This document shows positions 53,734 to 56,960 of a DNA stretch of 64,000 nt, in pieces. The translations under genes were made by a program, and so were the position numbers. The stretch is from NCBI RefSeq assembly GCF_040712075.1, contig NZ_JBFCVL010000006.1:372001-436000 (forward strand). Reading direction: 5' to 3'. Every line of letters begins with the position of its first letter. Position 1 is the first letter of the stretch. Origin of the DNA: Fodinicurvata sp. EGI_FJ10296 (GTDB lineage: Bacteria; Pseudomonadota; Alphaproteobacteria; DSM-16000; Inquilinaceae). The notes beneath the pieces are model-generated. The model saw only the letters and a list, made by a program, of their open reading frames with translations. It ran no database searches and was not told the DNA's origin.

Positions 53734-54213
53734 CTAATCCGTTCGGGGCAGGGCGCTGGCTTGCCAGTCGAGCGTTTGGCCAGTCGCCGATCTTATCTCG
53801 GTCAATGACTGCGCCAGGCCGACGATGATTCGTCCGTCATCGAATGATGGCTGTGGCGTTACTGAAGCTGCCAGCGCATCGGGAAGCCTGATCAGGACCG
53901 CGTTGACCCGGATCCGCGGCGCATTCTCCATGGCCAGACGGCCGATTCGTGACCGGAACTCGTCAAGATGGACCGGACGCCGCGACTGCGCCGCCAGCTC
54001 GGAAACAATGACCAGGTGCACCCGCGACTGGTCGCCCGCCTGTCTGAGGTCGGAGACCGCGCCCTCGGGCGTGTCGAGTATCCGAATGTTCAGCCGTGCT
54101 GTCCATTCGCCGCCGATGCACTGTATTGCCTGGGCGAGACAGTCTCGCCATTCCGGGGGAACCGCAAGCGCGACCTGCTCATGAACCCGATCGTTCAGTG
54201 TTGGGTTCGGCAT
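53734..54213 (-). CDS. Hypothetical protein
   Basis: A 159-residue soluble protein that I do not recognise. It begins MPNPTLNDRVHEQVALAVPP and has a regular alternation of hydrophobic strands and helices (RLNIRILDTPEGAVSDLRQA; RVHLVIVSELAAQS; RIRVNAVLIRLPD). The layout suggests a small alpha/beta domain. AGAGG lies nine bases before the ATG. It diverges from the lipoprotein gene, and the shared 150-base region is AT-rich. A link to the Slam system is only positional. Confidence 0.55.
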   Translation of the reverse strand: MPNPTLNDRVHEQVALAVPPEWRDCLAQAIQCIGGEWTARLNIRILDTPEGAVSDLRQAGDQSRVHLVIVSELAAQSRRPVHLDEFRSRIGRLAMENAPRIRVNAVLIRLPDALAASVTPQPSFDDGRIIVGLAQSLTEIRSATGQTLDWQASALPRTD

Positions 54214-54278
54214 CACGATTTGCCTCTGACCATGATTTCGGATTCCGTCCTGCTTCAACTTGTTGCGGAGAAACGGCC

Positions 54279-54323
54279 AATCAACATAAAAATCATATGG
54301 TATTTAATTGATTATAGATCTAT
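54279..54323. promoter_or_regulatory. AT-rich regulatory region upstream of the lipoprotein gene
   Basis: It holds AATCAA (54279-54284) facing TTGATT (54308-54313), a second arm AATCA at 54291, and a perfect 10-bp palindrome ATAGATCTAT at 54314-54323. The composition contrasts sharply with the GC-rich surroundings. Probable promoter and operator for one or both flanking genes; no known regulator site fits exactly. Confidence 0.45.
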
Positions 54324-54365: not shown

Positions 54366-55409
54366 ATGCGTTCACAACCTTTGTTGCCTCTCATTGTCGC
54401 CGGCATCCTTCTGTCGTCCGGTTTCTTGTTGAGCGGGTGTGTCGGCGGTTCATCGTCAGGTAGCGGACCTTCAGCTTCCGGCGGGGGCGGGGCTTCCAAC
54501 GATCAACAGGTGGATGACGAGTCACAGCCTGACTCCATCAGCGTCGGCTCGGTGCCAGGCGACCTTCGGGTTACGGACAATCTGATGGTTCCAAGCGGCG
54601 TTTACCTTCAAACCGAAGCGCGTTCGAGCCTCAGCGCCGGAATTCAGTCCAGCGCCGTCCGGCTTCGCTACAATGATGACGACACGGTCAGCGTTGTGCT
54701 CGATGGCGATACCCAAAGCTATGTCTATCGGTTTTCGCCCATTGATGGTGCCAGCGGCCGTGCTGCGGACGAAGATGCTGAGCCGGGGTTCTGGGAATCG
54801 CTCGGCCTGGCGGAGGACTTCGACCCGCAGAGCGTTCTGGAAGGCGACGACCGGGTTCATTTCGTAGGTGAGCATGCCGGCGGCGACAATCTCGTTTTCC
54901 TTGCTCAGGTTGCGCCGGACGACGCGTATTTCGTCATGAGCGCGCTTGCCGATCTGGATATCGGCGACAGCGACCTCCGTCTCGACCGGCATGCGTTCTT
55001 CATCGTGGGTGAAGAAACGAACAACGCGGCCGGAAATCTGTCCGGGGCCGCGCGCTATTCCGGCACTGCTTATGCCGTCAGAACCGAGGCGAACAACAGT
55101 GTCAGAGACACGCTGTCCGGAACGGCCAGCCTTGAGGCGAACTTCACAACCAACCGGGTCAGGATGGATATCGCGCTTCAGAGCAGCGTAGGTGACGATG
55201 CTTCATTCGCGGCAGAACCCTGGTCGGGTGAGGGCGTGAATATGGGCGGCAGTTCATTCTGGATGCAACTTCTGGGCGACGGTCTGAACCGAGGAGAAGC
55301 CAAGGGACGCTTCTATGGCCCCAACGCGGCGAACGCTGCGGGCGTATTCGAGGGTGAATATGGCGACAGCAGCCGTATCGATGGTGTTTTCGGAACGACG
55401 CGCCAGTAA
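54366..55409 (+). CDS. Surface lipoprotein, TbpB-like barrel (predicted Slam substrate)
   Basis: A 347-residue lipoprotein. The signal peptide ends in the lipobox LLSGC (Cys25), followed by a Gly/Ser-rich linker (about 26-50). The C-terminal part ends FYGPNAANAAGVFEGEY and IDGVFGTTR, the closing strands of the small beta-barrel seen in transferrin-binding-protein-like, Slam-dependent surface lipoproteins. The middle part (about 60-200) has no recognisable fold and may carry the ligand site. The ATG is preceded by CGGAAAC. The Slam gene starts 21 bases after its stop. Ligand unknown. Confidence 0.78.
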   Translation: MRSQPLLPLIVAGILLSSGFLLSGCVGGSSSGSGPSASGGGGASNDQQVDDESQPDSISVGSVPGDLRVTDNLMVPSGVYLQTEARSSLSAGIQSSAVRLRYNDDDTVSVVLDGDTQSYVYRFSPIDGASGRAADEDAEPGFWESLGLAEDFDPQSVLEGDDRVHFVGEHAGGDNLVFLAQVAPDDAYFVMSALADLDIGDSDLRLDRHAFFIVGEETNNAAGNLSGAARYSGTAYAVRTEANNSVRDTLSGTASLEANFTTNRVRMDIALQSSVGDDASFAAEPWSGEGVNMGGSSFWMQLLGDGLNRGEAKGRFYGPNAANAAGVFEGEYGDSSRIDGVFGTTRQ

Positions 55410-55430
55410 GTTGGGCCGCCAATCGATCTC

Positions 55431-56960
55431 GTGTATCCTCTTTGTGGATTTGCCGTGTTCCGTCCGACCGGTCTCGTCTATGCGGTAACAGGTATTGCCG
55501 TGATGTGCGTTGCCGGGACAGCGCTTACGGCGATTCCGGAAGCCGGGCCCGTCATGGGGCCGGGCGGAAGCGGACCAATCGGGCCGGGACAGGCCGTTTC
55601 GGTCCAGATCGTGTCGTTGCCCCGGAATCCCGACACGCCGCACATCGATTTTTCCGAACTGTCGGCCTCCGAACAGCAAGCCATGTTGCGGCGGCTGATC
55701 GCAGCCGGTCGCCTCGACATCGCTACGGCGATGGTCGAGACACTGGTTGCAGCCGGCACCCTTTCCCTGACTGACGGCCGGATGATTCTGGCCCGTCTAC
55801 TGGCCGAAGACGGGCAGGCGCCTGCCGCGATCGACCAGTATCGCCGCATCCTGGCGCAGGATGAGAGCCGCGTGGATGCGCGGCTCGAACTCGGGCGGCT
55901 GCTGTTCATGGACGACGACTATGATGCGGCCCGTGAGAATTTCCGGATCGCGCGAACGGATCCCGGACTATCGGCCGAGGCGGCCGCGGTAGTGGATGCG
56001 TATGTGGACGCGATGACGCCGCGGGACCCCTGGCAATTCGACGCCGCGATCGGGATCGCACCGGACAGCAATGTTACACAGGGCACGACGATCGACGAGA
56101 TCGAGTTGTTCGGGTTGCCGTTGCGCCTTTCGGAGTCCATGCGCCGGTCGACGGGTATCGGGGTCTTCGGCAATGCCTCTGTCGAATATAGCCCCGAGTT
56201 GCCGTTTTCGTTCGGTCAGGGCACGCGTACCGACCTGAGACTGGGCGCGGGCATCGGCCATGTGGCCTATGACGATCCGGACCTTGCGTCGACTGTCGCT
56301 TCTGGTCACGCAGGCCTCAGATTTCGCCACGATGGCGGATCGACCAGCGTGCTGGCGGTAGCATCAGCGCATTGGCAGGGACTGGGGCAAAGTCTGGGGC
56401 AAGGTCTGGGACATGACTTCCTGTCCGCTATCGCCGATCCGGTGGCTGCGGATGTTGGCGGCCGCCTGGAGATTGACCGCAGGCTCGACGCGCGCACCCG
56501 GTTCGACGGATATCTGGACATTCGGTATCGCGACTTTCCGGACCTTCGGGAACGCAATGGTGTCCGGGTACTGGCCGACGGCACGGTCACCTACGAAATC
56601 AACGCGCGGTCTTTCGTCCGCGGCAACGTACGCTTTGACAGGACCGCCTCGGGGCTGCCGGTCAACGCTTATTCGTCGCTCGGCCTCGGCGGCGGATATT
56701 ATTACGATTTCGAGGCCCCGTTTGCTGTATTCCTGCGGGGGTCGGCAGATTATCGGCTGTACGACGAAAGACCGTTCTTCTCCCCGGAAAACCGTGTCGA
56801 CCACCGTTTCGACGCCTCGATCGACGTTACCTATCAGGAGCCGGTCCTTTTCGGCTTCGCGCCGGTATTGCGCTACGGCTATACCTATAACGTGTCGACC
56901 GTGGACATCTATCAGTACGACCGTCATCGCCTGGATATCGGCCTGACCCGGCGCTTCTGA
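55431..56960 (+). CDS. Surface lipoprotein assembly modifier (Slam), outer-membrane translocon
   Basis: A two-domain outer-membrane protein that exposes lipoproteins on the cell surface (type XI secretion). The signal peptide is LVYAVTGIAVMCVAGTALTA. The periplasmic N-terminal domain (about 75-185) has TPR-type repeats (APAAIDQYRRILAQDESRVD, then LELGRLLFMDDDYDAARENF). The C-terminal domain (about 187-509) is a DUF560-type 14-strand beta-barrel with alternating strands and the terminal Phe of LDIGLTRRF recognised by BAM. The start is a GTG at 55431, or a GTG at 55455 that gives a more compact signal peptide. Its partner is the lipoprotein just upstream. Confidence 0.82.
   Translation: MYPLCGFAVFRPTGLVYAVTGIAVMCVAGTALTAIPEAGPVMGPGGSGPIGPGQAVSVQIVSLPRNPDTPHIDFSELSASEQQAMLRRLIAAGRLDIATAMVETLVAAGTLSLTDGRMILARLLAEDGQAPAAIDQYRRILAQDESRVDARLELGRLLFMDDDYDAARENFRIARTDPGLSAEAAAVVDAYVDAMTPRDPWQFDAAIGIAPDSNVTQGTTIDEIELFGLPLRLSESMRRSTGIGVFGNASVEYSPELPFSFGQGTRTDLRLGAGIGHVAYDDPDLASTVASGHAGLRFRHDGGSTSVLAVASAHWQGLGQSLGQGLGHDFLSAIADPVAADVGGRLEIDRRLDARTRFDGYLDIRYRDFPDLRERNGVRVLADGTVTYEINARSFVRGNVRFDRTASGLPVNAYSSLGLGGGYYYDFEAPFAVFLRGSADYRLYDERPFFSPENRVDHRFDASIDVTYQEPVLFGFAPVLRYGYTYNVSTVDIYQYDRHRLDIGLTRRF

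Follow-up and report, generated by a model that had tools for sequence, protein, structure and literature searches.

A predicted type XI secretion pair, a Slam outer-membrane protein and a lipoprotein with a TbpB-type barrel, in an alphaproteobacterium lacking detectable TonB receptors

Lipoproteins encoded next to Slam (surface lipoprotein assembly modulator, the outer-membrane protein of the type XI secretion system, T11SS) have been described across proteobacteria, and a TonB receptor was found in 120 of 185 lipoprotein-linked Slam clusters (PMC5449769). Environmental subclusters, including those of Sphingomonadaceae, have also been described (PMC8406197). At the T11SS loci of Rhodobacteraceae and Roseobacteraceae (cluster 3), the lipoprotein is 282-375 aa long, begins with a type II signal peptide and ends in an 8-strand barrel (Grossman 2025, PMC12282271), and TonB receptors seldom co-occur with this cluster (PMC12282271). 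Experimental verification of T11SS outer-membrane proteins (OMPs) is confined to members of cluster 1, which is animal-associated (PMC12282271).

A two-gene cassette of this kind was identified in the genome of Fodinicurvata sp. EGI_FJ10296, within a stretch of 64,000 nucleotides (hereinafter referred to as the window). The features of the cassette, in window coordinates, are as follows.

54287-54306, no strand assigned: imperfect AT-rich palindrome 5' of the lipoprotein gene, 20 bp, 8 of 10 pairs, at chance level
54366-55409, + strand: lipoprotein gene, predicted T11SS/Slam cargo; ATG start, 347 aa, type II signal peptide with LLSGC25, Gly/Ser-rich tether at about residues 26-60
54543-54929, + strand: handle or effector part of the cargo, about residues 60-188, low-confidence model, no relative found by sequence
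55041-55403, + strand: 8-strand TbpB_B_D barrel at the C-terminus of the cargo (Pfam, residues 226-346), with the family motif G-x-F-Y-G-P-x-A
55431-56960, + strand: Slam gene (T11SS OMP); GTG start, 509 aa
55665-56024, + strand: predicted periplasmic TPR domain of Slam, 7 helices, residues 79-198 (AlphaFold model)
56031-56957, + strand: predicted outer-membrane barrel of Slam, exactly 14 long strands, residues 201-509 (AlphaFold model)

The stop codon of the lipoprotein gene and the start codon of the Slam gene are separated by 21 nt (55410-55430); the reading frames and this spacing had been given with exact coordinates in an earlier sequence-only reading of the window. That reading had taken the two genes for a Slam and its surface lipoprotein, an interpretation supported by curated HMMs, both structure models, and a gene order kept in dozens of relatives. 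Because the TbpB_B_D and SlipAM matches exceed their Pfam cut-offs, the lipoprotein ends in a barrel of TbpB/NHBA type, and its partner combines TPR repeats with 14 strands, the pair is very probably a T11SS OMP with its cargo lipoprotein, the export role being a well-supported prediction.

Like the pairs of Neisseria, Moraxella, and Haemophilus (Slam1-TbpB, Slam2-HpuA; Hooda 2017, PMC5449769), the cassette combines a SlipAM barrel and TPR repeats with a linked TbpB_B_D lipoprotein. In contrast to those systems, the cargo consists of a single handle and barrel, no TonB receptor is linked to it or was found in the genome, and its Slam shares little sequence identity with those found. With cluster 3 of Rhodobacteraceae and Roseobacteraceae, the cassette shares the linkage of a T11SS OMP to an SPII lipoprotein that bears an 8-strand barrel, and the rarity of TonB receptors. 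Genes for DUF1194, thymidylate synthase, or glyoxalase were not recognised beside the cassette, which is instead flanked by uvrC and a Na/Ca exchanger gene. The same two-gene order, with a 1-nt gap and no adjoining TonB receptor, is present on plasmid pLA3 of Novosphingobium pentaromativorans (JI59_RS19935-RS19930), annotated by NCBI as "transferrin-binding protein-like solute binding protein" and "surface lipoprotein assembly modifier"; that Slam is about 25% identical to the one described here, and its cargo is identified by annotation. In the pairs of Halomonas/Vreelandella and Rhodospirillaceae SYSU D60014 (L067, L069, L070, L074), Slam is likewise directly preceded by a cargo of 315-421 aa that has a TbpB_B_D-type barrel, but the handles differ, and these Slams are about 30% identical to the one described here. 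The sequence-only reading had implied that a receptor-less pair was new; Slam-cargo pairs without an adjoining TonB receptor are in fact common in alphaproteobacteria and already in the literature (PMC12282271, PMC8406197, PMC5449769). The pair is a sequence-divergent addition to a known type of system, with an ordinary architecture.

The Slam protein matched the Pfam family SlipAM (PF04575) over the full length of the model (1-288 of 288; residues 201-509) with 50.8 bits against a cut-off of 22 (2.2e-13). TPR_Slam scored 31.8 bits, slightly under its Pfam cut-off of 35.2, and TPR_16 was found at 4.4e-7. The AlphaFold model had an overall pLDDT of 86.5, exceeding 90 over most of the barrel, and its 7 TPR helices and 14 strands, together with the SlipAM match, agree with the TPR and 14-strand DUF560-type barrel that had been claimed; a model lacking either the 14-strand barrel or the TPR domain, which would have spoken against the claim, was not obtained. 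A hydrophobic segment, a candidate Sec signal peptide, was seen by eye at residues 12-32 in the model and the sequence. The closest structural matches of the barrel were the 14-strand OmpG (2iwv_A, Z 21.0, 259 residues, rmsd 3.6) and CymA, and a sequence search of the PDB with the Slam profile gave TPR-type chains only among the best 60 matches listed. In a phylogenetic tree, the Slam stood on a long branch beside a protein from a Brocadiaceae MAG (30% identity, SH-aLRT 90) and was assigned to no firm subgroup; identity to the full-length relatives found was at most about 30-32%.

The second gene might instead encode another OMP with TPR repeats and a barrel, such as an exopolysaccharide porin of the PgaA/BcsC type or a FecR-linked barrel, with the lipoprotein arriving at its cellular location independently of it. 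The barrels of BcsC and PelB do appear in the Foldseek list for the Slam, and the second SlipAM gene of the genome sits with genes for FecR and a CHASE2-cyclase, not with cargo. Such an identity is nevertheless highly improbable, given the full-length SlipAM match over cut-off, the 14 strands rather than 16, a score of only 12 of 858 bits with the BcsC model, and the adjoining TbpB_B_D lipoprotein, an arrangement shared by dozens of relatives.

In the lipoprotein sequence, the lipobox L-L-S-G-C25 and the Gly/Ser-rich tether that follows were recognised by eye. TbpB_B_D matched with 31.6 bits against a cut-off of 26 (2.7e-7), and the LLSGC lipobox and TbpB-like closing barrel noted earlier were thus confirmed by sequence, Pfam, and the AlphaFold model. 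The NCBIfam equivalog slam_lipo (NF041636) matched at 1.2e-12 with 48.3 bits, under its cut-off of 80, which is an annotation threshold and no biological requirement. The AlphaFold model was confident only from about residue 180; its barrel begins at about residue 189 or 204, with pLDDT of about 80-94. Fold prediction, which had been proposed as a check, gave an 8-strand C-terminal barrel that matched NHBA, TbpB, and fHbp: the best structural match was the C-terminal domain of NHBA (6cuj_B, Z 17.7, 144 residues, rmsd 2.3), the C-lobe of TbpB (5kkx_B) followed with Z 16.6, and fHbp was also among the matches. A profile of the cargo family reached TbpB in the PDB at E of about 1e-25. For the handle, phmmer comparison with the neighbouring cargo proteins of relatives gave meaningful matches mainly in the barrel, and the lipoprotein may bind a new ligand, as the sequence-only reading had suggested. 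No relatives of the lipoprotein were found in viral contigs.

Among 385 genomes drawn evenly from the class, Slam relatives were found in 23 (E <= 1e-6) and recognisable lipoprotein relatives in only four, the source genome included, with the similarity lying chiefly in the barrel. A pattern from a 6-member Slam alignment was scanned against 84,980 species genomes, an alignment of 17 Slams having proved too divergent to serve this purpose; 264 of the 416 matches were stretches encoding Slam relatives. The best 80 of the 264 came mostly from Sphingomonadales, and also from Halomonas, Burkholderiaceae, other alphaproteobacteria, and some non-proteobacterial MAGs, with identities of about 23-37% over the best segment. 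For 106 Slam-like genes from alphaproteobacterial and other genomes, a barrel-type gene lay directly upstream on the same strand in at least 59 and on either side in at least 63, both being lower bounds because long Slam frames masked some cargo genes in gene calling. The gaps between cargo and Slam at these loci ranged mostly from overlap to about 140 nt, and TbpB_B_D was confirmed by Pfam in many of the neighbours re-tested.

Lipoprotein-Slam pairs were also seen on MAG contigs labelled Nitrospira (L146:5756-9293; barrel of the cargo without Pfam confirmation), Chthoniobacter, Verrucomicrobiota (L128:634-2907), and Deltaproteobacteria, Myxococcota (L090:6522-9443). T11SS is usually placed within the Proteobacteria, and these three lie beyond that range or on its margin; each may reflect a binning error. 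At two further loci (L040:2910-10523 and L041:4726-10322), the Slam genes are flanked on both sides by genes for cargo-barrel proteins with proline-rich tethers, and a barrel-bearing protein of 710-1312 aa is also encoded; these are candidate multi-cargo T11SS loci.

No TonB receptor gene adjoins the cassette, as had been noted from the sequence. In the whole source genome (4.8 Mb, 99.4% complete), neither a TonB Plug domain nor TonB_C (TonB protein) was detected, while the Plug search detected receptors in the positive controls, E. coli and Caulobacter. A single match to the TonB barrel (PF00593) was under cut-off, and the protein was rejected as a receptor since its sequence reads as FadL-like. 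The plug domain was present in 15 of 16 other genomes of the family; the plug-less exception (G009) has a Slam gene with a lipoprotein neighbour. Plugs were absent from 7 of the 21 Slam-bearing genomes examined. A search of relatives for a conserved TonB receptor neighbour, suggested earlier as a check, found one within two genes at only 2 of 36 cargo-bearing loci with long flanks (rough local profile), so that absence of an adjoining receptor is the rule in this sample.

These data bear on whether the pair serves in the acquisition of iron, haem, or another metal, with the lipoprotein capturing a ligand for a TonB receptor encoded elsewhere, as TbpB, HpuA, and HphA do. Iron or haem uptake is the role of most characterised cargo with a TbpB-type barrel, and the published frequency of receptors in lipoprotein-linked Slam clusters cited above is in accordance with such a role. 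Against it stand the lack of any plug, TonB_C, or true TonB-dependent barrel in a nearly complete genome, the lack of an adjoining receptor, and the rarity of one among the cargo-bearing relatives, and we consider acquisition very unlikely. The evidence argues strongly against a TbpA/TbpB-type uptake scheme in the source genome. Since no TonB receptor was detected, the lipoprotein probably has a stand-alone function at the surface.

The lipoprotein would be synthesised with a type II signal peptide, lipidated at Cys25, judging from the lipobox, and then delivered to the outer membrane from its periplasmic side. By analogy with characterised Slam pairs, its C-terminal TbpB-type barrel would be recognised by the adjacent Slam, which would move the lipoprotein to the outer leaflet, where the variable N-terminal handle would project on the Gly/Ser-rich tether. 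There the lipoprotein would most likely act alone, as an adhesin or as a surface-binding or ligand-sequestering protein, rather than as an uptake co-receptor. We tentatively suggest, at somewhat less than even confidence, that in a bacterium without TonB receptors the lipoprotein serves at the surface independently of TonB, by adhesion, sequestration, or shielding, with a handle that has no sequence relationship to known cargo. If so, a pair of Slam and TbpB-type barrel can do without the iron-uptake context in which it was discovered. An intact pair in an alphaproteobacterial genome in which no TonB receptor is detectable offers a clean test case for the roles of T11SS cargo that have no TonB channel to supply.

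Four relatives of the family (L176-L179; SDR called by Pfam in L176, and by similar length and sequence start in L177-L179) have the order uvrB-caxA-SDR-uvrC and lack the cassette there, and in the source genome the position of SDR holds the lipoprotein gene, the Slam gene, and an ORF of 174 aa. Because the family relatives keep this order without it, the cassette is, judged from gene order, lineage-specific at the uvrB-uvrC site, where it was gained or to which it was moved. The 174-aa ORF (window 53734-54258, - strand) had no Pfam or NCBIfam match above threshold.

The absence of the cassette from the same site in family relatives and the long branch of the Slam would also fit an acquisition that is decaying and out of use. 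Both frames are intact, however, with codon-position GC similar to that of adjoining genes, and both folds are complete in the models, which makes decay scarcely probable.

The 107-nt region upstream of the lipoprotein gene had 41% GC, compared with 62% for the window. The AT-rich palindrome in it had been read as a sign of regulated expression; its letters are real, yet compared with dinucleotide-shuffled versions of this AT-rich stretch it did not rise above chance (P = 0.064). TGA-N9-TCA, Fur-like, and Irr-like motifs had no match upstream of the lipoprotein gene, and the palindrome was rejected as a regulator site given its chance-level P and the lack of a known motif. No sigma-70-type promoter was found in the upstream region, and an Rfam search gave no RNA elements.

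The second gene for a SlipAM barrel in the source genome (G000:C9:196569-197471; L061:5630-10769) is flanked by one gene for a FecR-domain protein and one for a CHASE2-adenylate/guanylate cyclase, and the locus has no cargo with a TbpB barrel. This FecR/SlipAM/CHASE2-cyclase locus is possibly a signalling module using a Slam-like barrel.
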